Below, piece after piece: positions 1 to 20,842 of a stretch of DNA of 64,000 nucleotides. The notes below the pieces were generated by a model. That model was not told where the DNA came from. It searched no databases and saw only the letters and a list, made by a program, of their open reading frames with translations. The first letter of the stretch is position 1. Each line of letters begins with the position of its first letter. The position numbers and the translations under genes were made by a program. The DNA is from Coptis chinensis (taxonomy: Eukaryota; Streptophyta; Magnoliopsida; Ranunculales; Ranunculaceae), in the NCBI GenBank assembly GCA_015680905.1, contig CM027380.1:10248001-10312000 (forward strand), given 5' to 3'.

Positions 1-700
1 AGATCTACATCGAGGAAGTCTTGGTTCCCAATGCTCCTATTTATGATGGACCTCAATTTGGCTTTCGGACCTTAGTGATTTTGTTGAAGGGGGCCTTTGA
101 TTTGGCTTGAATCAAGGTTGCAGTGATGAGTAATCTATTGTGTGGGATATGCAAACTTCATCTATTTTGGTTTTTGAGTATGTTTTTGTAAGTAATGGTA
201 AGAGCCTTTTGCAAGATGTAAGAATGACATAACGAATTTGTGCACTATAGCTTGTTATGATGGTATGATGGTTTATAAGAATGTTTATTGTCTGAATGTT
301 ATATTATGAAAGTTTTTATGTTTTATGCAGGTTGAAGAGATAACCCCGTTTTTAACTCCGCCAGTGCAAAGTAATGAAAGTCTTTGCGCTGCCGGTCCCA
401 AGCCCGGATAAAGGAGGAGGGAGAATGGTGGAACTTTGGAATCGTCCTTGGATTCTTGTAAATCTGTTTTTGGTGATAATGTTGCTGTTTTTAGCAACTC
501 TGCTGGTAAGTTGGCATTGCCTAGTCTGTATAAATATCTTGTTTCATACTTGTGGACTAATGTTTATGTTTGATTTTTTTATGCTAGGATTAAGCCAATA
601 TGATGCTAATGGTTCCAAAGCTCGAACGCTTGAGCAATCAATTGGAATTCATGTCATTAGACACGGTAAGTCACTTTGTTGCACTGAATGATTTACTATT
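1..700 (+). other. Unassigned gene-like sequence at window start
   Basis: Short open stretches are present (about bases 1-108 ending in a stop, and 329-480 and 590-660) with protein-like composition, and GT/AG-like borders appear near 329 and 490. I do not recognise the product, and none of it matches the N-terminal helicase motifs that should precede the RECQL3-like remnant downstream. It may be the 3' end of another gene or more decayed sequence. Confidence 0.25.
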
Positions 701-807
701 GAATAGCATTTCTAGTTACTGCATTTGGATTGCTTTGTGATTAACTCACCAATGTTGTCAACTATTGAACTTTATCCCTAACAGTTGGCATTTGTTTTTT
801 ATTATTA

Positions 808-5885
<5,078 letters not shown>

Positions 5886-6289
5886 TTAACCCAAAGAAAT
5901 GCCTCGGCGACTTAAAGTAAGCACATGTTTTCTTTTTAATTTCTAATATATCTTGATTTTATTATTCTAAAGACTTTCTTCTAAGCTTGCATGTAAGGAC
6001 CACCTTTTTTTTATTGATTTGTCAAGGAAACCATTATCTCAAAATGTCATCCTAAATATTAAATATTGTAATCCTAAATATTTTGTAGTAGTGCTTTTAG
6101 AGAGGGAAGGAAAGTGCAATTGGAAGGAGAAACACATGAATATATAACATGCGTAGATCTTTGATCGGGGATCAAACCATAATACAAATGCTCCCTGTTT
6201 TGATTAATTCCTTTCGTCCCCATTTGCAAAAGCATTGGTAATTTTCTTTGTTTCTATATGAAACCGGGAGGTTCAAATTTAGGGCAAGA
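5886..6289. other. No recognisable gene
   Basis: AT-rich sequence following the last RECQL3-like block. I see no gene, RNA or clear repeat in it. Any 5' part of the CACTA element that ends at 6809 would have to lie here or be lost. Confidence 0.4.
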
Positions 6290-6809
6290 AAAAATAAAAA
6301 TAATTTTTTTACAATATCAAACATTAGTAACGGTTTTAAACCCGTTTGCAAAAGCAAAAAAATTAAAGCATCTAATTGTCACTCTGCAACGGTTAATAAC
6401 CGTTGGAAAATTTGGTTTGCAACGCTTTGCTTTGCAACGCTTTTAACCGTTAGTAATTGTCACTCGCGAACGGTTAATAACCGTTGAAAATTTGGTTTGC
6501 AATGCTTGCTTTGGTAACGCTTTGCTTTTGCAACGCTTTTTAACCGTTAGTAATTGTCACTCTGCAACGGTAAATAACCGTTGGAAAATTTGGTTTGCAA
6601 CGCTTTGCTTTGCAACGCTTTTAACCGTTAGTAATTGTCACTCAAGAACGGTAAATAACCGTTGGAAAATTTGGTTTGCAACGGCAAAAACCGTTGCAAA
6701 TATTTCCAACACTTTACCGACGTTTCTATTTGCAACGCTTTTAAAAGCGTTATGAAAATTATCATAGAACGGTTTTTTACCGTTGCAAATAGCCTGTTAT
6801 GGTGTAGTG
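6290..6809. mobile_element. CACTA (En/Spm-like) transposon end with subterminal repeats
   Basis: The right end at 6792-6809 reads, on the minus strand, CACTACACCATAACAGGC, which is the terminus typical of CACTA elements. Inside it lies a dense array of AACGGTTAATAACCGTT and GCAACGCTTT motifs on both strands. One subterminal unit begins TAATTGTCACTC at about 6373, 6454, 6551 and 6632, so spacing is 81, 97 and 81 bases. Such arrays are transposase-binding regions in this superfamily. No transposase and no matching CACTA left end was found upstream, so this is a non-autonomous or truncated element. Open frames across this array (6248-6755) are repeat artefacts and not genes. Confidence 0.75.
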
Positions 6810-7380
6810 TCCTTAGCCCTTGACACTAACTCATTATCATTTCATAACTCGCATTTCTCTTAATTTCCCGTCATATAATACTTTCATTTGCAAAATCATC
6901 AATTTCCCCCCTCACGGTGCTTTAAGGTTGGATGAGAAATAGTCTCCTAAGATAGAACAAAATTTCCTTCTATGGAAAGCAACATTTCAATTCCACAAAA
7001 TCAGCAAATTGAACTCAACATTGTGTTTTGAATTAGACCAAAGAGGAGAAAAGATGCAAAAAGGGATGTCCCTTCATACAAAAACGTCAGATATTTATAG
7101 GAGAGTGGTGCATTTTCGAAACAACAATGCAACTTCTCAAACAGTCACACCTTTTCGAAATGATGCACCATTTTGGCATAATGCAACGTTTCGAACCGTT
7201 GCACCATTTCAAAAAGGTTTTTTTCTATTTACCATTTCAAGAGAAATTGTTAAGCTTTATGGGCCTAAACGGATTGGGCCTTGTTGGTTGTCCAAAAATA
7301 TACACTACACACCACCTAGTCAAGCTCAGCCGGACAACGACAGTGCGTGTATTTCTTGTTGAGCTTGATTGCGTCCCGCC
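6810..7380. other. No recognisable gene
   Basis: A stretch between the CACTA end and a MITE. Bases 7100-7210 repeat short TTTCGAA..GCACCATTT motifs on both strands, giving frames open on both strands, but no protein family is visible. Confidence 0.4.
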
Positions 7381-7631
7381 TAGGGTGTCAATGAGTTTCG
7401 ATAACCACGATATCCAACCCAACCAAACCAATAAAAAGTGATTTGGGTTTTGGTATTTCGGTTTGGTAATAGGTTCAATTTTGAGTTCCGATAAGATATT
7501 GGTTTCGGGTTCGCCCTCCACCGAACTGATAAGATGACATTTTAGTAATATTTATGATTAATTTTTTTATATGTTTATCAATTGTGTGGATGAAATTAAT
7601 CGATTTAATTTAGGATATATTGATAGCCCTA
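7381..7631. mobile_element. Decayed hAT-type MITE (weak)
   Basis: It starts TAGGGTGTCAA and ends TTGATAGCCCTA, which are imperfect inverted repeats of each other. The body has the same CCAACCCAACC / GGTTTCGGGTT composition as the better hAT MITEs at 25923, 44944 and 53269. The putative 8-bp flanks (GTCCCGCC / GTGTCGTC) match at only 5 of 8 positions, so the call rests mainly on similarity to the other three. Confidence 0.45.
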
Positions 7632-8874
7632 GTGTCGTCTCCATAGAAAATTAGTGGTAACCCTTAGGGCCCAACCCAAGTAGCCACAATTAGGCCTTAT
7701 AAACCCAAAAAATTAGAAGGATTTCTTTATGTGTACTTTAAGATTAAGCCTTATACTTCTCTAGTTGGTACGTGGTGTGATTGGCAAAATCATTTGACAT
7801 ATTTCTCTGTATGTCTACCTATGATTGCAAGTGGACTCATATTTACATGTATTACGTGTATGTCCTAGCTTGTTAATTAGTTCTGTATTACATGTATTTC
7901 TGATTTTTGTTTTTATCCAAATTTTCAGGGCCAGTTTAAGAATTGTGTTGATATATCTGACGGAGTCGAGCAGTTTGACGATGGGTTTACATGTAAAAGA
8001 AAAAAACAACTGTAACTAAAGAAAAGGGGTAATCTTCTACAATGATATCCATGAAGGTACTTGACGCAAAAGGTCATGTTGCAACTGTATCGTAGCACTT
8101 CTTTCTCTCTAATTTCTTAGCTTAATGACACAAACACAGCCATAGATATAGATGGACAATTCCTAAACACCACAGTAGCGTAGACCGTATAGTTCAGTTT
8201 AATAGAAAATGGAAGGAGGCAAAAAGAAAAAAGAAGTCAGTTGACTTGAGGCGAGTTTTAAGTATGGGGTAAGATGTATGTTGTATACTTATATTAAACT
8301 TTTAAACATGATGTAGGTGAATGAAAAATCCAACAAAATCAAGATAACACAAAGAAGAAGTTAATACTACTTATTTCGTTCACAGGGGATTCATTAAGAA
8401 AGATGTCACGGTTACTAAGACTGGCGACAGAGTAAATCTCAATGCAAAGTTGCTTGAGAAGGAGGGACATGAAGCAATTTTTATCTACGTGCACTGTGTT
8501 ACTATTGCGCATTCAAAACCCAAAATGAATTTGGGATTTCCCTTGCTTTAGAGTTGACTCCACTATTTTACCGTACCAATATTTGAGTTGCATTCTAACA
8601 TAAACTCATGATCCATGTACTCTGTCTCAATTGGTTTAGATTTTACCAAGAGCATTCAAAATTCACCATTGCTATTTGATGGTTTTATTATCTACTTTGA
8701 GGAAAAGATTCAACTATGTATATTGTAAGAATTATCCCTTTTAACCATTAAATAAAAAAATATCTAATGCAGTCAATTCTTAGTTATATTCATAGCAATC
8801 AATTACAATTTTTTTTTAAACAAATGCAATTAGAATTCTCTGATGATCCCACACAGTGAATCATGTATATATAG
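7632..8874 (+). other. Mostly featureless; one exon-like block near 8386-8492
   Basis: AT-rich sequence. A possible splice acceptor (TTCGTTCACAG, ending at 8385) is followed by an open block reading FIKKDVTVTKTGDRVNLNAK and on to about 8492, then a stop downstream. Its composition is protein-like, but I do not recognise the family. The rest shows no gene, RNA or repeat I can support. Confidence 0.3.
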
Positions 8875-11365
8875 CAAACCTCAAAGAATAATTAATGTAA
8901 AATCGAAAACATAATGCAAATGCATCGAACTAACCTCAAAGAATAATTAGTAGGAAATCAGAAACTAGATGCAAATACATCAAACTAACCACAATGAATA
9001 ATTAACTAGAAATTGGAAATTGAAAACTGGGTGCAAATGAATTTCAAAAAATAATTAACGAGAAATCGAAAACTGGATGCAACTACATTGAACTAACCAC
9101 AAATAATAATTAATAGAAAATTGGAAAATTGATGCAAATGAATCAAACTAACCTCAAAGAATAATTATCGAAAAATCATAAACTCGATACAACGGCATTG
9201 AACTAACCTCAAAGAATAATTAAAGGGAAATCAGAAACTGAATGCAAATGTATTAAACTAGCCTAAAAGAATAATAAACAGGAAATCGGAAATTGGATGC
9301 AATTGTATGCAAACGCATTGAACTAGCCTTAATTCCCTTAAAGAATAATTAACATGAAATCGAAAACAGTTTGCAACTGCGAGCATTATTGAACTATTCC
9401 GAAATAATAATTAACAGGAAATCGAAAGTTGTATGTAACTGTATTAAACTAACCTCAAATTATAATTAACGGGAAATCAGAAACTGGATGCAACATCAAA
9501 CTAACCTAAAAAAATAATTAGCAAAAAATTGGAAACTTGAATAAATTGCATTGAACTAACCTCAAATAATAATTAATGGGAAATCGAAAACTAGACGGAT
9601 GCAACTGCATCGAACTAACCTCAAAGAATAATTAACTAAAAACCGAAAACAGGATGCAAATGTAATGAACCAACCTCAACGAATAATTAATGGGAAACCA
9701 AAAACATGATGCAAATGCATTGAACCAACCTCAAAGAATAATTAATGGGAAATCAGAAACTGCATGGAACTAACCTCAACAAATAATTAACAGGAAATCA
9801 GAATTTGGACACAAATGCATTGAACCAACCTCAAAGAATAATTAACGGGAAATCGGAAACTAGATACTAATGCATTGAACTAACCCAAAAAAATATTTAA
9901 CGGGAAATCGGAAACTGAATGCAAATGCTTTGAACTAACCTAAAAAAATAATTAACACAAAATAAAAAACTGGACGCAACTGCATGGAAGTAACCTCAAA
10001 GAATAATTAACAAGAAATCTGAAACTAGATGCAAATGCATCAAACTAACTTCAAAAAATGATTAACGGGAAATCGGAAACTTAACCTCGGAGAATAATTA
10101 ACGAGAAATAAAAAAAACTAAATACAAATACATCGAACTAACCTCAAAGAATTATTAATTAGAAAATTAGAAACTGGAGGCAAATGCATTGAAGTAACCC
10201 CATAAAATAATTAATGAAAAATCATAAATTGGATGAAAATGCGTTGAACTAACCTCAAAGAATTAGAAACTTGATGCAAATGCATCGAGCTAACCTCAAA
10301 GAATAATTAACGGGAAATCAGCAACTGGAGGCAAATGCATTTAACTAATCTAAAAGAATAATTAACAGGAAATCAGAAACGGGATGCAAATGTAAATGCA
10401 TTGAACTAACATCAAAGAATAATGAATGGAAAATTGAAAACTTGGTACAAATGCATTAAACTAACCTCAAAGAATAATTAACGAGAAGTTTGAAACTTGA
10501 TGCAAATGCATGCATTGATCTAATCTCAAAGAATAATTAATGAGAAATCGAAAACTAAATGCAACTATATTAAACTGACCTCAAAGAAGAACTAACGGGA
10601 AATCAAAAATTAGATGCAAATGCATCGAATTAATGTAAAAGAATAATTAAAAGGAAATGAGCACCGGGATGCAAAAACATTGAACTAGCCTCAGAGAATA
10701 ATTATCGGGAAATCAGAAACTAGATGCAACTACATTGAACTAAGCTCAAAAAAATAATTAACGAAAAATAGGACATTAGATGCAAATGCATGAAACTAAC
10801 CTCAAAAAATAATTAACGAGAAATCGAAAACTGGATGCAACAACATTAAGCTATCCTCAAAGACTAATTAACAGGATATCAAAAACTGGATGCAAATGCA
10901 TTGAACTAAACTCAAAGACTAATTAACGGGAAATCGAAAACTGGATGAAAATGCATTGAAGTAACCTTAAAAAGTAGTTAACAGAAAATCGGTAACTAGA
11001 TGCAACTGTATAAAAATAACATCAACGAATAGTTAACAGAAAATTGGAAACTGAATGCAACTGCATCGAACTGACCTTAAAAAATAATTAACAAGAAATC
11101 GGAAGCCTCAAAAAATAATTAATGAGAAATGGGAAACTTGATGCAACTGCATTGAACTAGCCTAAAAAAATAATTAACGGGAGAAATCGGAAACCAAATG
11201 TAACTGTATTGAACTAACCTCATAAAATAATTAATGAAAAATCAGAAACTGGGTGCAAATGCATTGAACTAACCTCAAAAAATAATTAACAGGAAATCGA
11301 AAACTAGAACTAATCTCAAAGAATAATTAACCGGAAAATCAGAAATTAGATGCAAATGCAACGAA
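8875..11365. repeat. 55-bp tandem repeat array, about 45 units
   Basis: A head-to-tail array of a 55-bp unit whose core reads AACCTCAAAGAATAATTAAC followed by GGGAAATCGGAAACTGGATG and CAAATGCATTGAACT. The 2.5 kb length gives about 45 copies, heavily diverged by substitutions and small indels, with occasional shortened units (for example near 10080 and 11100). The period is not a multiple of three and TAATTA recurs, so no frame stays open. It is not flanked by an obvious transposon terminus on either side. Confidence 0.9.
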
Positions 11366-11435
11366 AATAACTAATACTACATAATTGATTAATGGGCCTT
11401 ACGGTCATAGGGGTGTTGTCAGGGCTCTTGCTTCC

Positions 11436-12644
11436 TAATAAGAGCCCAAAACTGTAGTTTTAACCCCTTGACAATCATACTTTTAGACCAATTATGCGAG
11501 TAATAAATAAGAGTTAATGTTGATTACGTATTTTTATGTATTTCAGGCATTGAAGTCAATTATGTGCAAAAATGTGTCACTTTGGTGAGATAAATGAGTA
11601 AGGGTTGGTTGCTAAGAAGTTCTGTGATTAAAGGCCAAGATTCAAGGACACAAAGCCTTTGTAAAGCCCGGTTAAAAGCTAAAAAGTCAACGCGGGCAGA
11701 AACATTGCACAAGTCAGCAGAACTTCCGAAGACCATATCTTTGGACTCAGGCCTTGGAATCGGGCGTACCTTATGTTAAAACGACCGGCTCAGAAAGAGC
11801 TTTCCAACGGTCTAAGACTTGACCCAATCAGAGAAGCAAAAGTGGACGAAAAGTCTGTTGAAGTCAAATCTAGCTAAAACGGGCTATGTGGAATGAAGAA
11901 ATTGGGCTTTAGGCTTGATTTTCTGGCCCAAAACATAGCTCCTCAGCCCATTCACGAAATTGTGGATCTGGTCTCCTCCTTTACAAAGGAGAAGACTTAG
12001 CTCTTAAGTATCATGAGCTTAGGATAGAAAGTAGCCATTAGAGAATAAATTAGATCTAGTTTTGCGAATTTTAATTAGTTAATTAATTAGTTTTTCATAC
12101 CTTGTTTTAGATTAGTTATTTGAATCATTGTTATTTATTCATTAGATAAATAAAATAGTTAGTTCTTGATAAATTCGATTTTTGTTATTTAAAATTGCTT
12201 AGATCTAATTTCAATTCTTGTTTGTTATTCATTTCTTAGTTATTAATTTAGATTTGAATTATTGTTTAGTTCAATTTAATAAAGTTATAATCTTTATATT
12301 ATGTCGTATTCAATTTCACATGGAAATGATAGTTTGATGAATCAAGGCTAAACCTCCATTAGAGGGGTTTAATGAAGCCTTGATGAAAACTTGATTGTGT
12401 AGTGTAGAATTGTTGTAAGAGTTTATTCCACTCTAGAAGGTCGTTGATTCGCCATGAGAATGGGTGGACTTTCTCACATGCTAGTTATAAATTGGTAGAG
12501 ATGCCATGTATAATTAGGGATTAAAACGACCAATTCTTACCGTAAGAACGTAAAAATTAGATTACAACAATCTATACTAGTTTATTAAGTTGGATTCAAG
12601 GTGGATTCAATTCCCCCCTAATTCTTATTCTAGATTCAAACATC
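11436..12644. mobile_element. Truncated LTR, same family as 36403-37703
   Basis: It is collinear with the LTR at 36403-37703: both carry AAGAGCCCAAAACTGTAGTT, the GTTGCTAAGAAGTTCT block, AACGACCGGCTC and the CTAAACCTCCATTAGAGGGG block. It is a Ty3/gypsy-type LTR fossil without internal coding sequence. Its right side stops at 12644, exactly where the inverted block containing the Tat-like element begins. The family looks old, since the two copies differ throughout. Confidence 0.7.
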
Positions 12645-12812
12645 GTCCACCTGTCCTGTCATCTCACGGTTCGTCTTCTTACCGTACATGTGCCACGTCC
12701 GCGGTCTAGGGTTCCGTGGTCACAATTCCGTGCTCTCCCTTTTTCTTCAGTATCTTGCATCCTATCCCCTGCACCGCTGACCTAGTCCAATTGCCCACAT
12801 TATGCCACTACA
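12645..12812 (-). repeat. T1 3' LTR, U3-side part
   Basis: These 168 bases match 20086-20253 of the complete LTR over their full length, with about a dozen differences, mostly C/T or G/A. Its inner border on the minus strand is TGTAGTGGCA, preceded by a purine-rich GAGAAGGGG tract. The other part of this LTR is found at 20436-20579. Confidence 0.9.
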
Positions 12813-13320
12813 AATGCCCCTTCTCGACTCTGCGGTCCTATTAATGGATCCGGTGTCGAGAACTTTCATCGCTTGTCTTTTCTATCCACTGCCCATGCTC
12901 TTTTTCCTTGATTCACGCGTGATGGGGACTGTAATCATCACGCGTGCTTCCAGCCGCCCTCATGTCTCGTGCTTCCACGTGTCTCATCCTGGCTAGATTG
13001 TCCTCCCGACTCCTCAAATTCATCAACTCCCTGCAATTACCCTTCTACCCTTCCCCTTTTTAAACCCCTTTCCTTCTCCCTCTTTCCCATTTCAGTTTTC
13101 TCCTTCTCTTGCTCTGCCATCGTTCTCCCATTTTCGATCAGCCTTTGGTCAGCGTGTGCTTCTTTACTCTTCCGCGACTTTCCTCCACTTTTGGCATCCT
13201 TTTCGGGCTTAACATCTCTTTCCTTGCTCCCAGCAGACGCGTTTTACGGGCTCCCTTTATTTTAGTTTGAACTGGTTATTTGGGTTTGTTCATATCTCGT
13301 CTCGTTCCTCTACTTTTTCG

Positions 13321-15626
13321 ATGTCACCACTGAATCCGACGACTCGCCTTTCTTCTCCATCCCACGGGGTAGCGTCTCCACCCCCTACTGCCTCTGCGAT
13401 GGTACCATCCACCTCGGGACGTCAAGGTTCCCTGCTACCTCCACCATCTCGATGCCGCCGCCCTTATTTAGACTCAATTAGGGCTGCTTATGGCATTCCT
13501 GCTAGCATAAACCTAGAGCATGTGCCATCTACCACACATTGCCCCCACCTGGTTCCCCACCATCCGGGGTACCTCGTGATTACGGTGGGTCAAATAATTA
13601 CCAGTCTAAGGCTTCCCATCACCTTTCTGGACGTTGAAGTATGTAATCATTTCAACATCCCCCCATGCCAAGGCATCGGGAATTTTTGGAGGACTATGTA
13701 TGCCGTGAACTCCTATAATAAAATTGGTCAACCCCAGATTACCAGCCGCGATATCATCTCTCATTATTTCCTCAAGAAAAGCACCAAGGACGTCGGTGTG
13801 GGTACCAGTCCTTCTGTGTGCGTCCTCAGAAACCCCAACTCTTGCTCCGTGTCACTACCTCCGATAAGGTGTGGCACCATTACCCTCTATACGTATCGGG
13901 GCAATTTCTATCAGCGGACCTTCCTCCAGAACTGACTCTTAATCATCTCGCCTTCATAGCCCATGGTGAGTATCTTTATTCTTCTCATCTCTTTAACCGT
14001 CTGTCTCGATGCACACTAAACCGCGGTTTTTCTCCATTTTGTAGGTTGGCGGCCAGATTCCAAATCCTGAATCTACTCAGGCATATCTTGTCCTGTCTTC
14101 CAAAGGCTTCGCGATCTTAGTCCAGGTCAAGCCGAACTCCTGGGTATCCATCCTACCACCGCTACTCCCTTACTGCAAATCCCTGATTTACAAACTTTCC
14201 GCGGCTTCTCAGCTCCATTTTACCATCCTCCCCCTCCCAAAGAAAGGAAACCAAAAGCCTCGCATCCTCCCAGGAAAAGATCCCACACCCAAGCCTCACA
14301 CCTCCGTCATCCCCAAACTTCCTCTCAGTCACGCAAATCTTGCGATCCCCGCCCTTGCTCTGCTCCCAAAGACATCCCTTCTTATCGCTCCATATCTACT
14401 TGGGACGATCAATACACCTCTCCCCTTTCCCTCGCTAACGATATGGATGTTCGCAAGCAGAAATTGTTTGACAGCGACTCCAATGGAGATGGTGATGTCA
14501 GGGAGATCCCCGTCACTGAAGTCGATGCTCCTGCTAATGCACCACCAGCCAAGAGGCAACGGACTTCAACCTCAGCAGAGTCTGACCAAGTCACTCAGCA
14601 GACATCCATTTCTGAAGATCCTGAGCCCATCACTTCCTAACCCATTCAATCTGCAGTCCCTTCCCAGCACTCTCGCCGTCCTGGCAAAGAAACTTGTCCC
14701 CCTGTTGCTCCTGCTTCTGACATGACCCCTGTTGAGGATTCCTGCCCTGTGTTCAAGGTGAGTGACCACAGGCTGAACACCGCAGACTTCACACTGGACA
14801 ATGCAGCCGCTGCCTCTTCTCTATTCTACAATGCTCACTTGCCTAAGGACATTGCGTATGCCGATGAACATCGTACATCGATGTATACCAATTGGGAAAG
14901 GGTACACTCTCTCTCTCTCTCCTTTTTTTTTTTTTTACATCTCGCCCCTGGATTCTAGGTAAGCTTGGATATCTCTTTCATGATTCGTGACCTCTTCAGT
15001 GCCAAGAACAAGGTAGCATCCCTGGAGAAAGAACTCTGTGGCCCTAAAGGCTTAAGAAGTGCCTATGCCGGGATTCAATCAGCTCTGGAAGCCGCCAACC
15101 TTGCCAAACTCAGGGCCCAAGACGAGCTTAGGTTCGCAGAGTCTACTCACCAGCAAGATTTGGACAAAGCCAATGAACGCCTGACCAAATAGAGGGAAGA
15201 ACTTCTTCAACAACACCAATGTGATTTGGACGCCCTTGCTCGATAACATCAGGAAGCCGTGGATGCGCTTATGCAGAAACACCAAGCTGACTCCACTGCA
15301 TTGCAGCAACAGCACCAAACAGACATGGCTGCATTACGCGACCACTTCAAGCAATTGGCAGACAAGCGAGTAGCCCGAAAGATTCATGAAGAGCACGTGT
15401 GACTCACTCTAGAAGGGAGACTTCTCCCCGAAAGGCCCGCCACCCCTGTGGTTGAAAGAACTGATATCGCAGTGGAAGTGGAACAGACTACTGATGTTGT
15501 CCTTGGCCACCCCGGTCAAGAGGACCCCCCCATCCAAGCAGTGGCTACTACTGAATCTGAAGCTACGGCCCTTGAAGGAGACTCTGATGTCATGACTCAT
15601 GATGATCTCGCATCCGAGCAGCTTTA
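13321..15626 (+). pseudogene. T1 antisense ORF region (Tat-lineage aORF fossil)
   Basis: The region encodes, against the direction of gag-pol, a serine/proline-rich start (from 13321). A globular segment with FLDVEVCNHFNIPPCQ and NFWRTMYAVNSYN follows (about 13620-13730) and resembles the domain databases label putative gypsy-type transposon protein. A coiled-coil segment lies at 14965-15400 (KNKVASLEKEL, KLRAQDELRFAE, DLDKANERL). Extra antisense ORFs in this position are known for plant Tat-lineage retrotransposons; their function is unknown. It is a broken fossil. The second Tat-like element in this window has the same arrangement at 40698-42961. Confidence 0.65.
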
Positions 15627-15899
15627 GAAATTCTCTTTTATACTATGCTACATTTGAAACTCATGACCTCTTAGCAGATCCACTCCTTTATTATGTAAAC
15701 ACTTTATATTCATTTTGTTCAAAAGGATGCTTGCTTTTGCTCCTAGTGTGTGTCTCTCTTTTGTGATTCCTACTTGTTCATTTAATTTGCCTTTGTATGT
15801 ATGTCTCCCCGTCTCCTCATGTCTATATCTCTCTCCTAAGATTTTGCTATATTGACTTAAACAATTAGTATTCTCACTTTCGACGCTCTCTCTTTCTTT

Positions 15900-16360
15900 C
15901 GGCTACCTAGCCGGAAGGGGCCAATCTCCATGCCCCGCATGTAATCTGTACCTCCAGTCTGCGACTACATGATTTAATTGGGATGACTCATCTCGCCCCA
16001 GGCTACACTCCGGCCTTGTATCAGCGAAGAGCTCATCCCCTCCACTGTCTTTCGCTACTCTAGGGTCCAATGCCCCATGTGTAGTTCACCTCTCTCGTCC
16101 GTGAAGGGCTCATCCCACTCTAGGGCTGGGGACAACTCCTCTTGTCCCAGGCTCAAATCTGGTATTGTATCAGTGAAGGGCTCCCCGTTGTCTCTCTTTA
16201 TTCTGGGCTCAATGCCTCATGTGTGATTTGTATCACTCCGCCCGCGAAGGGCTCATCCCACTCCGTGGTGTTATAGCCACAGAAAGCCCCTTGGGGCATC
16301 TCATTTTGCCCCATGGATAATTCTGACTTTGTCTCAACGAAGGGCTCATCCCTTCCGCTC
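15900..16360. repeat. Degenerate tandem repeat between T1 integrase and antisense ORF
   Basis: GAAGGGCTCATCCC or a close variant recurs near 16026, 16103, 16175, 16247 and 16339, each followed by a variable CACTC/TCTCTTT stretch and by TGCCCCATGTGTA-like text. Spacing is about 72-92 bases. The region lies between the ends of two oppositely directed coding blocks of the element. Confidence 0.65.
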
Positions 16361-16504
16361 TCTTTCTCTCTATGCTTGCATTTCCCATCCCATGTTCATT
16401 CTGGGGAACTTCTACTGCTCCTACTAACAATCTCATCTCAAAAGTACCGTTGTATTATATATTTACATACAGCTATATATCTTTGCTCTGACTTTTTGTT
16501 ACAT

Positions 16505-17833
16505 TCAAGTGTAAATTTTTTTGAGCATTCTAACATTCCATGATTTCTCTACCAACTTGCCCTCCTTGGGCTGCACCTTGTAGGTTCCTGCTCCTCTTAT
16601 ATCTACCACGATATATGGTCCCTCCCAGTTCGGACCCAAATTCCCGTCCTTCTCCTTCTTTGTGCTAGGAGTTACTCGGTAGAGCACCTGCTTGCCTATT
16701 TGGAATTGCCGCGGCTTGAAACTCTTGTTGTGCTGTCTCTGCAATCTCTTGTGGTACTCTCCTAACTTGATGCGGGCCATGTCCCTTCTTTCTTCTACCA
16801 GATTCAGATCCGCTGCTAATATTCTCCAATTTGAACCCTCCTCCACGGCTTTTGTCCACGCGTTGTTCTTTGCTACCATTTCGGAAGGTATCCGGCGGCC
16901 TTCACACCGTAAGCCATAGAAAGCAGGGTCTCCTGAGTGGACGACCGAGGTGTAGTCTGATAGGCCCAGAGAACAGGATTTAGCTCGTCTGCCCAAGCCC
17001 CCTTCCTATCTTCCAACTTCTTCTTCAGATTGTTCATAATAGTTTTGTTGGATGACTCCGCCTGTCCTCTACCCTCAGGGTTGTATGGGGCCGAGAACCT
17101 CTGTTTCACCCCGTACGCTTGCAAGAAGCTAGTCACCTTTGCTTCGTTTAATTGGGTCCTATTGTCTGCTATGATGGCATATGGTAGTCCAAACTTGCAA
17201 ATGATATTCTCCCACAAGAACTTGATTACTTGTGTGTCCGCTGACCCCTTCTTTGTTTGGCGGTGCGATCTCAATCCATTTTGTGAAATAATCAGTGGCT
17301 GCGAGCATGAACCTCTACTTCCCGCTAGCCATGGGCAGCGGTCCCACTAGATCCATTGCCCACATAGCAAATGGCCATGGAGTGGAAACGTTGTGTAAAG
17401 GTTCTGTGGGGGCGCATATTAGCTGGGCGAACTTCTGACATTTGTCACATCTTTTAGCAAACTCCCCTGCATCCCTCTTCATATGGGGCCAGAAATACCC
17501 TTGTGTCAACAACCGATGAGCCGTAGCTCTCCCTGGAGAATGACTCCCACGATCTCTTTCGTGTAATTCGGCCAACACCTCAGCTGCTAGCCGCAGACCT
17601 AAGCATTTTAACAGCGGTCCATTGAAGTTTTTCCAGTACAACTCCCCTTCTAGCAGAACGTATCTTTGAGAAGCCTGTTGCCACCTTCTTCTCTCCTTGT
17701 CTGTCACTTCCTGTCCCGCCAAAAAGTCTTTGATCGGATCCATCCAACTCCCCTCTTCTCCCTTTCCAATACTCACCATTTCAATTTCATCGAGGGTCTT
17801 CGATACCACTAATGTCTCCGCCTCCCTCTCCAC
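16505..17833 (-). pseudogene. T1 integrase region fossil
   Basis: Recognisable parts in order on the minus strand are the zinc-binding head (HRLLTQGYFWPHMKRDA followed by CDKCQKF), the start of the core with PWPFAMWAMDLVGPLP, the core segment with FGLPYAIIADN and FSAPYNPEGRGQAESSNK, and the C-terminal chromo-like/GPY part with LGPNWEGPYIVVD. This is a Ty3/gypsy integrase of the Tat/Ogre type. It is a broken fossil. Confidence 0.85.
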
Positions 17834-17851
17834 CGAGGCGTACTGTAATTG

Positions 17852-18340
17852 CTATGCTCGCCTTTTCCTAGGATTAGAAGCCTCTCCTTCTGGTCCGCGG
17901 ATCAATCGCTTCACAGAGCCCCGATGACTGTTCTTGGTAGTTACCTGATCACCGTAAACCTCATACATGCCGGTAGGGGTGGGAAATCGTATCACTTGAT
18001 AGTATGTTGATGGTACCGCCTTCATCTCATGGGTCCATCGCCTCCCTAAAATTGCATTATACTGCGAAACAGAATCTATCACCATGAATCGGGTGAAAAC
18101 GGTCACCAGACCTGTTGTTACGGGCAATAAAAGCTCTCCCATGGGCTCTGTCATACTCCCATTGAATCCGTATAGATTGGCTCGCGAAGGTCGCAGCTGC
18201 TTAGGATCCACTCCCATCTCCTCCAACGCCACTCTGAATAACAGATCTATTGCACTTCCACAATCAATCAACACTCTCTTCACCATGTAATTTCCCATCA
18301 CTACTGTAATTACCAGGGCGTCTTCGTGCGGTGAGTCCAC
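17852..18340 (-). pseudogene. T1 aspartic protease region fossil
   Basis: Retroviral-type protease fold signature: VKRVLIDCGSAIDLLF, then LYGFNGSMTEPMG and YNAILGRRW, as found at the end of plant Ty3/gypsy proteases. It lies between the gag and integrase parts of T1. Confidence 0.8.
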
Positions 18341-18784
18341 TGCACGGAGGTCCGCGCTGCTGAATACAATTATGTCCTTTTATGATGCCAACACTGCATT
18401 CTGCTGCGGTCTATCTATTCTCTCACTGATCTGTTGGATACTCGTCGTCCGTCTTATCTTGTCTCTATGAGCGTCGTGACTTAGGACCTCACCGCTGTAA
18501 ATCACATTGATGGTTCACAATATTCTTCCTTGAGGTGGCATGCGTTTCTCATTCTGTTCTCCTCTCACAAACTCTCTCATCCCTCCTCTCTCCACCATCC
18601 TCTGAATCAGCCATTTTAACACATAACAATCATTAGTCTCGTGATTCCGCACTTGATGATATGTGCATAACGATTTCTCTGGTATCTCTATTGGTGTACT
18701 TCACGGTCCCTCATACCCCGGGAGATTCTTGATTAAGGGCAAGATCTCGCTCAATGGTTTATTCAACGGCGTCTGCTCTGTCTC

Positions 18785-19640
18785 TCAGTATGGCTTTCTC
18801 TCCCGGTACTCTCGTCGGGCACCCTCCCAGGTTCCCTCTACCCGTGCGCGGTATCCACCGCTTTCTTTCCCGGATGTCTCTGCCCTCCTGGGCTCCCTTT
18901 CCTTTTCCAATGACAACACTGCTTTTCTCGACTTTCTAGAATCCTTCTGCATCGTGTCTCCATACCTTATGTACTTCTCTACACGTGGATAAAGTTCATG
19001 TATGGTCGCGATCTCATTCTTTGCCACAGACTGGTGTACTCCTGTTCCCGGGCGCAAACCTCTCTCAAAGGCTATCACTGTAGTCTGTTCATCCAGATTT
19101 TCAACTTTCACTCTCACTGCCTTGAATCGACACAAAAAGTCTCTAACTGATTCTGTGGATCATTGCCTCACATTGAATAGGGCCGCAATATCTACCACCC
19201 GCCTCTTCTGGTGTATGAAGTGATCTATAAATGCCTGCTCCAACTCCTAGAAATTGTTTATGCTCCCCGCTGGTAACCTGTAATGCCAATCTGATGCTCC
19301 TCCTTTCAGACTAGCCGAGAACATCATGCATCGCAGACCATCATACCGCGCCTCCTGCCACAGAGGCATCTGTTGCAGGAAATGATGGATGTGGTCTGCT
19401 AGATCTCCCTTGCCATCATACCTTTCGAATCTAGGCTGAGCGAACCGCTTTGGGACCTCCGACGCCCATATTTTATCTGCTAATGGGTTGCGGTTCAACC
19501 CGGCCACCACCTGACTAGCCGCTCCTCCTTGACCCTTCTCTTGCCGTCGGTTCGCCTCTCTATCATTGTCTATCATCTCCTGGACTTGCTTTGTTGTCAA
19601 ACCCGCTACCGGGTTTTCCACAAGATCTAGTCCAACCATC
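18785..19640 (-). pseudogene. T1 gag region fossil
   Basis: Capsid-like segment on the minus strand with FAQPRFERYDGKGDLADHIH and FSASLKGGASDWHYRLP, typical of plant Ty3/gypsy gag, then a charged basic tail. The upstream end is near the primer-binding site. Broken fossil. Confidence 0.8.
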
Positions 19641-19920
19641 TCTTCCTCAGCTCTCTAACCTTCAGATCCCTTATTCCCTTCTTCCTCGGCCTCTTCCTCT
19701 GCCCTTTCTCTCTCTCTTCTTAGCTCGTCGTTCTTTTCCTTTAGCCTCGCAATCTCTTCTCGCATCAGCCTCGTTTCTTCTGTCTCATGTTCCTCTCTTC
19801 GGTCTCATTCTCCATCAATCACACCCTCCAGCGCTAGATCCGGTGCTGGGTCCTCAACCGCCACCCTTCTGGGTCTACCTACTTTCCTCTTCAGTGCCAT
19901 TCCTATCTTGCCTTTGTCTC

Positions 19921-19940
19921 TCCCCACAGACGGCGCCAAA
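19921..19940 (-). other. T1 primer-binding site
   Basis: Directly inside the 5' LTR, the minus strand reads TTTGGCGCCGTCTGTGGGGA. This TGGCGCCG-type site is typical of plant Ty3/gypsy elements and resembles tRNA-Asp-primed sites. It fixes the orientation of the element. Confidence 0.7.
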
Positions 19941-20253
19941 TGTATGAACACAAAAACCCTGTTCTAAACTCTCTAGGTTTCTCTCCTCTCTTTCTCTTGT
20001 TCTCTCCTACTTTTTCTCTAATGCGGCCCCCCTCTCTCTCTCCACACACTGTTCCTTTTATATCTCCCTTCAATCTATCTGAGTTGTCCACCTATCCTGT
20101 CATCTCACGATTCGTCTTCTTACCATACATGTGCCACGTCCGCGGTCTAAGGTTCCGCGTTCAAGATTCCGTGCTCTCCCTTTTTCTTCAGTATATTGCA
20201 TCTTATCCCCTGGACCACTGACCTAGTCCAATTTCCCACATTATGCCACTACA
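19941..20253 (-). repeat. T1 complete 5' LTR
   Basis: A 313-bp LTR with TG...CA ends: on the plus strand it starts TGTATGAACA and ends GCCACTACA. On the minus strand a TATA-like GATATAAAAGG sits at 20054-20064. The plus-strand flank CCCTT (20254-20258) is the outer copy of the target-site duplication, AAGGG on the minus strand. Confidence 0.9.
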
Positions 20254-20435
20254 CCCTTCTTGGCTCCAAACATCAGCATTCCTACCCCTATCCCTGCCTC
20301 TACCACCTCTACTTCCTCTACCAAATCTAACATTTGCCAGTAAAAGCATGAGTCACTAAAAATGTGCCTTTAATTGCTGAACCACTCACATGAAGATTAC
20401 CAATTTTGTTGCTAAGCTCACTAATAATATCCGCG
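20254..20435 (-). pseudogene. Upstream part of the gene hit by T1 (inside inverted block)
   Basis: On the minus strand this ends with a basic Gly/Arg-rich stretch (VRFGRGSRGGRGRDRGRN, then ADVWSQEG) that runs into the AAGGG duplication. It continues in frame on the plus strand at 20580 (TASEDGGGRGRN). So the two parts belong to one gene, separated by the T1 insertion and turned around by the inversion. Upstream text reads SELSNKIGNLHVSGSAIK in another frame, perhaps an earlier exon. The product is not identified; an RGG-rich tail of a MULE-type transposase or an RNA-binding protein is possible. Confidence 0.5.
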
Positions 20436-20579
20436 ACTCAGATAGATTGAAGGGAGATATAAAAGGAACAGTGTGTGGAGAGAGAGAGGGGGGCCGCATT
20501 AGAGAAAAAGTAGGAGAGAACAAGAGAAAGAGAGGAGAGAAACCTAGAGAGTTTAGAATAGGGTTTTTGTGTTCAAACA
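20436..20579 (+). repeat. Inverted second part of the T1 3' LTR
   Basis: These 144 bases are the reverse complement of 19941-20084, with only two differences by eye. The outer end reads TTGTGTTCAAACA and is followed by AAGGG (20580-20584), the same duplication that flanks the 5' LTR. Together with 12645-12812 it accounts for essentially the whole 313-bp LTR. The open frame 20390-20842 crosses it and is therefore chimeric, not a gene. Confidence 0.9.
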
Positions 20580-20842
20580 AAGGGACTGCAAGTGAGGATG
20601 GGGGTGGAAGAGGTAGAAATGTTGCTGAAAATGCCCCTATGCAAAGACTTTTTGAACTTTTATTTGGCAATTCACTAGGTCCCCCACAACCTAGCCAGTC
20701 TGAACCTATTCAGACTCAAGAAAGTGTTGCTCTAGTGAGGCCAGTCCTAAACATTCTTGCAATGCCACCAATGCCACCTCCGAGAAAAAGGTCCAGAAAG
20801 GGGACAACATCCTCTCAAGCTTCATCACATGTAGAGTCTTAA
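20580..20842 (+). pseudogene. C-terminal part of the gene hit by T1
   Basis: It continues the Gly/Arg-rich reading frame (GTASEDGGGRGRNVAENAP), then a low-complexity proline/glutamine stretch and a basic patch (PPRKRSRKGTTSSQASSH), with a stop at 20840-20842. It looks like the nuclear-localised, disordered C-terminus of a plant or MULE-type protein. Family not established. Confidence 0.45.

Follow-up and report, generated by a model that had tools for sequence, protein, structure and literature searches.

The window analysed here, i.e., the whole 64,000-nucleotide stretch of Coptis chinensis DNA at C4:10248001-10312000 (C4 being contig CM027380.1), contains a retrotransposon whose 3' long terminal repeat (LTR) is cut in two. 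Comparison with another copy of this region, located on the same contig, shows that two adjacent blocks, X and Y, are each flipped, and that the break inside the retrotransposon splits its 3' LTR. The outer end of block X meets the last base of a CACTA (En/Spm) DNA transposon, and it is likely that this CACTA transposon is the agent of at least one of the three breaks. On the whole, and with reserve, we favour the reading that an alternative (reversed-ends) CACTA transposition flipped X, and that a CACTA excision followed, after which Y was rejoined backwards.

The rearranged copy, W, covers w6810-43990, where w stands for window position. The second copy, P, covers C4:10113634-10162124, its left end lying about 141 kb upstream of that of W. 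The genome searched comprises 935.6 Mb in 116 contigs.

Two flipped blocks and a split 3' LTR

W aligns with P as follows: (i) w6810-12641 corresponds to P 10119473-10113634 (minus); (ii) w12643-16642 corresponds to P 10137964-10133928 (minus); (iii) w16633-20432 corresponds to P 10123261-10119471 (minus); (iv) w20434 onward corresponds to P 10137962 onward (plus, with gaps), as far as w43990 = P 10162124. Block X is 97.7% identical to its counterpart, and w20585-43990 (plus) is 94.8-97.7% identical per main piece. Between W and P, X shows 1.96% substitutions (114/5826), the two parts of Y show 3.36% and 2.53%, and the first 3.2 kb of Z shows 1.30%.

P runs K - X' - Y' - Z, whereas W runs CACTA - X - Y - Z, both X and Y being reversed there. 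K denotes the stretch beside X' in P that is absent beside X in W. P holds the retrotransposon with AAGGG at both ends and with an intact 313-bp 3' LTR, i.e., the pre-inversion order. The un-flipped arrangement, which the initial annotation expected in relatives, is thus found in a paralogous copy on the same contig. The blocks of W and the short sequences at their ends are listed below; none of them is given a strand, and apart from the blocks they are read from the comparison of the joints of W and P.

6810-6812: TCC, which reads GGA on the strand of P; first of the two copies of a 3-bp duplication, adjoining the CACTA end; a single GGA stands at the X/Y join of P
6810-12641: block X, flipped relative to P C4:10113634-10119473; it contains the upstream part of a gene-like repeat (at 6810), a 55-bp tandem array (8877-11308) and the end of a dispersed repeat (to 12641)
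12642: filler A at the X/Y junction
12643-12645: TCG, which reads CGA on the strand of the element; first of the two copies of the 3 bp doubled at the LTR break
12643-20432: block Y, flipped relative to P C4:10119471-10137964 (in P, this includes a private insert of 10.7 kb), from the W/P alignment
20430-20432: TCC, second copy of the GGA duplication
20433: filler G at the Y/Z junction
20434-20436: CGA, the other copy of the 3 bp doubled at the LTR break

Three joints differ between W and P, and a CACTA transposon end stands at the third, i.e., the outermost. In P, the joints read GGGCTAA-GGA-TATTATTAG (X'/Y'), GGTGGA-CGA-CTCAG (LTR) and CTACTCAG-GTTTGAATC (K/X'). The joints of W read CACTA end-TCC-TTAGCCC (left), TTCAAAC-A-TCG-TCCACC (middle) and AATA-TCC-G-CGA-CTCAG (right). 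X, Y and Z meet in P without loss at the joints, with 3-bp overlaps only. GGA and CGA are single in P and are each present on both separated ends in W; moreover, each inner join of W has one extra base (A at 12642 and G at 20433).

The initial annotation had explained the locus by a single inversion with breakpoints at 12644/12645 and 20435/20436. An inversion of block 12645-20435 only fits the junction inside the LTR and the placement of AAGGG, but X is flipped too, and three joints differ. The left junction is left unexplained: a lone flip of Y would put w12643 beside w6810. This model must be replaced by two flipped blocks and three breaks, because it is w6810, and not w12641, that adjoins the far end of the block in P. 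It could be rescued only if P had undergone a separate inversion of X; however, P matches other copies at both ends of X. A single inversion is thus highly improbable.

From sequence comparison, the arrangement of P looks ancestral: at the two joints open to comparison P agrees with other copies, and at the third it has a whole LTR. At X'/Y', the other gene-repeat copies that were fetched (L036-L041) run through as in P in 6/6 cases, with 144-154 identical columns out of 169. At K/X', three K-like stretches adjoin copies of the X end among the matches listed (best 40 candidates per search), i.e., C3:97669368 and C8:70938716 (direct) and C6:87940518 (4 bases apart).

The overall identity of W and P is about 95-98%, over 37 kb (W) or 48 kb (P) of one contig, as would be seen if the assembly were in error or if two haplotypes had been placed in tandem, W and P then being alleles. 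On the other hand, base-precise junction signatures (an exact transposon end, 3-bp doublings) are not expected from mis-joins at long repeats, and the collinearity ends at w43990/P10162124 and is not resumed in the stretches examined. This explanation is improbable; its weight is counted apart from that of the other accounts, and the haplotype case is compatible with them. Were W and P alleles, the inversion would remain real and would be a polymorphism.

Judged against the un-flipped duplicate, both the inversion and the split of one LTR, i.e., the 3' LTR of W, are real in the assembly. The parts concerned are:

12643-12812, minus strand: 3' LTR, positions 1-170 (1/170 different from the intact 3' LTR of P)
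19941-20253, minus strand: whole 5' LTR, 313 bp (genome search with the LTR and pairwise matches)
20434-20579, plus strand: 3' LTR, positions 168-313 (2/146 different from the 3' LTR of P, then the 3' flank of P)
20580-20584, plus strand: AAGGG, second copy of the 5-bp target-site duplication of the retrotransposon (the same in P)

The two LTR pieces match the complete LTR as first described: 12645-12812 is identical to 20086-20253 at 155/168 positions (direct), and 20436-20579 to 19941-20084 at 142/144 (reverse complement). They had been taken for adjoining parts. That one LTR is divided holds, but both pieces are longer than was stated and they overlap by CGA: when guided by P, piece 1 covers LTR positions 1-170 (w12812 to 12643) and piece 2 covers positions 168-313 (w20434-20579). 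Base 20085 is a mismatch in the 5' LTR of W (CAA for CGA) and not a gap. The AAGGG that had been reported at both places is read directly after 20579 and, as CCCTT (AAGGG on the element strand), directly after 20253; the two are one 5-bp target duplication on two strands.

Among the 41 places listed by a genome search with the 313-bp LTR, only the whole LTR of W, the two W pieces and the two LTRs of P exceed 90%. The LTRs of P are whole (C4:10119650-10119962 and C4:10137795-10138107) and differ from each other at 13/313 sites. The resemblance of the pieces is not a matter of chance. Piece 1 differs from the 3' LTR of P at 1/170 sites and from the 5' LTR at 9/170; of the 10 sites by which the two can be told from each other, 9 have the 3'-LTR base in piece 1. 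Piece 2 contains 3 separating sites and has the 3'-LTR base at one of them (position 310); at the other two, the 3' LTR of P stands alone against three other copies. The origin of piece 2 rests mainly on its flank, since its base count is one nearer to the 5' LTR of P (1/146 differences, against 2/146 for the 3' LTR). This flank (w20580 onward, more than 2 kb) matches the flank of the 3' LTR of P. Both copies share the insertion and its target-site duplication, which fits an insertion that predates the duplication of the region, and the 13/313 difference between the LTRs of P is consistent with this order.

A CACTA end at the outer break

The sequence to the left of block X belongs to a CACTA transposon:

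1-6809, plus strand: 3' part of a CACTA (En/Spm) DNA transposon, which extends to the left of the window as far as C4:10242376; its 5' end is missing
6792-6809, minus strand: CACTA terminal repeat, CACTACACCATAACAGGC from the break inward (exact 18-bp end)

Subterminal short repeats and the terminus lie at about w6373-6809. The last base of the element is w6809, and the terminus is thus exactly at the rearrangement breakpoint w6809/6810. The part to the left of the window encodes a Tnp2-type transposase, i.e., Transposase_21 (PF02992, E 8.9e-51) and DUF4218 (PF13960, E 6.6e-12). The element has long matches at other loci (90-97% identical). In W it stops at C4:10242376, where 31/40 of the other matches listed begin too, and another abundant repeat starts there in W.

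In the 312 kb examined, only two exact 18-bp CACTA ends are present, at w6809 and at C4:10339948, and no opposite (plus-strand) end was found with up to 4/18 mismatches. The end at C4:10339948 (L032) has the same orientation, lies about 85 kb to the right of w6809 and resembles the W element over about 155 bp only. Since there are only two exact ends, it is unlikely that chance placed a breakpoint on the terminal base of a CACTA element (of the order of 1e-5 per breakpoint, by our own estimate). CACTA transposase makes 3-bp duplications (PMC8978399). The doubling of GGA, with TCC at 6810-6812 and 20430-20432 on both separated halves of the target, is what a CACTA 3-bp target-site duplication would give.

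K was not found in C4:10162125-10254809, and for 1 kb of K the best other genomic match is 82% identical (best 40 of 8618 candidates scored). A missing K is what the loss of the spacer in a reversed-ends transposition predicts. In the maize inversions made by reversed-ends transposition, the facing ends of two nearby elements in direct orientation are joined to a new target, the segment between element and target is flipped, the spacer is lost and target duplications are present at the termini; one transposon stands just outside one end and another inside the other end (PMC8225341). Repeated Ac/Ds events build complex alleles (PMC9910405), and Ac/Ds leaves short excision scars (PMC3470690).

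The favoured reading, i.e., reversed-ends transposition and then excision, would run as follows: (i) the retrotransposon would have inserted into a dispersed gene-like repeat, giving the AAGGG duplication; (ii) the region would later have been copied, giving P and W on C4, and only W would then have been rearranged at the three joints; (iii) two CACTA copies in direct orientation would have been present to the left of X, and a reversed-ends transposition would have joined their facing CACTA ends to the target GGA between X' and Y'; (iv) the spacer K would thereby have been lost and X flipped, with one CACTA outside X and one between X and Y; (v) the second CACTA would have excised, leaving a break between X and Y; (vi) this break and a staggered 3-bp cut at CGA in the LTR would have been closed with Y backwards, a repair that would have left the fillers A and G, no transposon and a split LTR. 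For the first step, the flip of X, the sequence gives direct support at one end of the two; the second step is one that we infer.

Several points weigh against this course of events. The second CACTA is absent at the X/Y join (AAC-A-TCG, with no transposon), and its former presence is deduced only from the fillers and from this join. The surviving CACTA is without its other end at C4:10242376, so that its own second flank is unreadable. The CGA duplication has no adjoining transposon end, and any staggered break followed by end joining could give it. The three-base overlaps are short. The loss of K is equally well a plain deletion, or K was never copied. The 3-bp duplication of this CACTA family is read at the W locus alone, and the rearrangement is known from one assembly, in comparison with P of the same genome alone. 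The locus behaves like a product of alternative transposition, but we do not class it as a proven case, since the second transposon end, although sought, is absent.

The main rival is a set of three breaks closed by plain end joining, with both X and Y reinserted flipped and with a CACTA transposon that was passive or lent a broken end. The one-base fillers and the 3-bp overlaps suit the repair of staggered breaks, inversions with inverted duplications from staggered cuts have been described (Ranz et al. 2007, as cited in PMC8225341), and the CGA junction is without a transposon end. However, the third break falls on the exact last CACTA base, with so few exact ends in the surrounding sequence, and the duplicated GGA is exactly 3 bp long. 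This account is, in our opinion, unlikely.

Alternatively, a CACTA transposon could have entered the GGA that lies between X and Y; one end of it would then have jumped twice, to CGA in the LTR (flip of Y) and next to the K/X boundary (flip of X together with CACTA). GGA and CGA would then both be 3-bp target duplications, and both fillers would be excision scars. Such jumps predict that K adjoins the opposite CACTA end in W, but K did not turn up there and the end in question is missing. Moreover, in the literature consulted, one-ended jumps figure only as a proposed case (VANDAL5, cited in PMC12312487). We consider this explanation quite unlikely.

To return to reversed-ends transposition followed by excision, the locus may, more tentatively, be a natural and base-resolved record of successive CACTA alternative transposition, i.e., one reversed-ends event and one failed reinsertion after excision, by which two neighbouring blocks were flipped in one duplicate. 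This broader statement is possible rather than probable.

The retrotransposon, the repeat it entered and other features

The retrotransposon lies in minus orientation, in the order LTR, primer site side TTTGGCGCCGTCTGTGGGG, gag, protease-like region, integrase, antisense open reading frames (ORFs), purine tract and 3' LTR. In W, its reading frames are broken into several ORFs. Its internal parts and the sequence that it entered are:

13213-15627, plus strand: additional ORFs, broken, which lie between pol and the 3' LTR in antisense to gag-pol (ORF layout)
16505-17851, minus strand: broken integrase with zinc-binding and core domains (Integrase_H2C2, E 4.3e-10; rve, E 2.8e-6, below the curated cut-off)
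17852-19654, minus strand: broken protease-like and gag region (Retrotrans_gag, E 0.0068, below the curated cut-off; ORF layout)
20254-20432, minus strand: middle part of the gene-like repeat entered by the retrotransposon, starting with the target-site duplication CCCTT/AAGGG at 20254-20258 (alignments of repeat copies)

The protease-like region in 17852-19654 is presumably such, by its motif. Two stretches of the antisense ORFs at 13213-15627 were compared with Pfam, and neither has a match. The scan of six minus-strand stretches (18380-18784 and 19160-19246 lie outside it) revealed no domain of a reverse transcriptase or of an RNase H, and a placement of the lineage by reverse transcriptase is thus impossible. 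The element had first been called Tat-like. The antisense ORFs and the integrase domains agree with that name; the name is reasonable, because ORFs in antisense, placed between pol and the 3' LTR, have been described in Grande, RIRE2 and Retand (PMC11963269). The element resembles the Retand lineage as described there by an antisense ORF in this position and by a 5-bp target duplication, and differs from it in that no reverse transcriptase domain was found here. It is plausible, from these sequence features, that the retrotransposon is a Ty3/gypsy element of Tat/Retand-like type.

Once the flanks of the retrotransposon are placed side by side, the entered frame reads ...DVWSQEG/TASEDGGG..., and the frame of the gene that was hit does continue across AAGGG in W, as had been noted from the start. 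In P, this frame is broken farther along, past SEPIQ or its counterpart. The joined flanks are matched across both sides at 24/54 of the rows listed (69-77% identical), and because of these 24 places the entered sequence is considered as a dispersed gene-like repeat. This repeat is present at w20254-20842 and in no fewer than 24 further places; it has a stretch rich in Gly and Arg and a proline-rich tail, the latter with no Pfam match. With its many copies and these two features, it may be part of another mobile element.

Other features of the region can be described briefly. The 55-bp array (w8877-11308) consists of about 40 diverged units and lies beside the end of a very abundant dispersed repeat. 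The duplicated segment is 37 kb long in W and 48 kb in P, and its end at w43990 runs in W into CACTGATG... and then a C-run. The 10.7-kb insertion private to P is in the integrase region of the retrotransposon (C4:10123262-10133927); its first 2.9 kb or so recurs at its end (7.7 kb apart, about 96%), an arrangement expected of LTRs. Between P and W, C4:10206336-10215311 contains two adjoining inverted-repeat pairs (0.8 kb, 99%; 3.4 kb, 96%). A DDE_Tnp_4 transposase fragment (E 1.5e-13), which we take to be probably of Harbinger type, is found at w23381-23710 on the minus strand.

Comparison with known systems and meaning of the locus

The closest comparison is with reversed-ends transposition of maize Ac/Ds, as in the p1/p2 inversion alleles (PMC8225341, PMC9910405). 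The common points are: (i) a transposon end exactly at an inversion breakpoint; (ii) a short target duplication on both separated sides, a flipped flanking segment and a spacer that, here, may have been lost; (iii) repeated events, proposed for this locus, that build complex alleles. In contrast to maize, the transposon is here a CACTA element, the doubling is of 3 bp and the locus is old and natural; where two transposon ends are expected, a single one remains, and the second flipped block is without any.

VANDAL21 in Arabidopsis met1 (PMC12312487) is likewise a class II plant transposon outside Ac/Ds, and is proposed as a source of inversions, deletions and complex rearrangements. Those events are somatic and seen in reads, whereas the rearrangement described here is fixed in the assembly and resolved to the base by a paralogous copy. 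The joining of ends after staggered breaks (Ranz et al. 2007, as cited in PMC8225341) also gives short duplications at both ends of a flipped block; it would not, alone, put a CACTA terminus at the break. No case of CACTA alternative transposition, or of CACTA at an inversion breakpoint, appears in the titles and abstract openings of the open-licence papers that literature searches listed, which is weak evidence of absence.

The making of inversions by transposons is, as such, a known process. The cause of a small inversion is often unreadable, the pre-inversion state being gone. Here this state is kept by a duplicate in the same genome, and each joint can be read to the base because of it. 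That cut-and-paste transposons beyond Ac/Ds make such inversions in nature is suggested by the CACTA end together with the 3-bp doublings. If the favoured reading is true, (i) CACTA elements would join those that undergo alternative transposition, and this in a plant genome that is not one of the laboratory systems, and (ii) CACTA alternative transposition could leave inversions with no transposon at one breakpoint.

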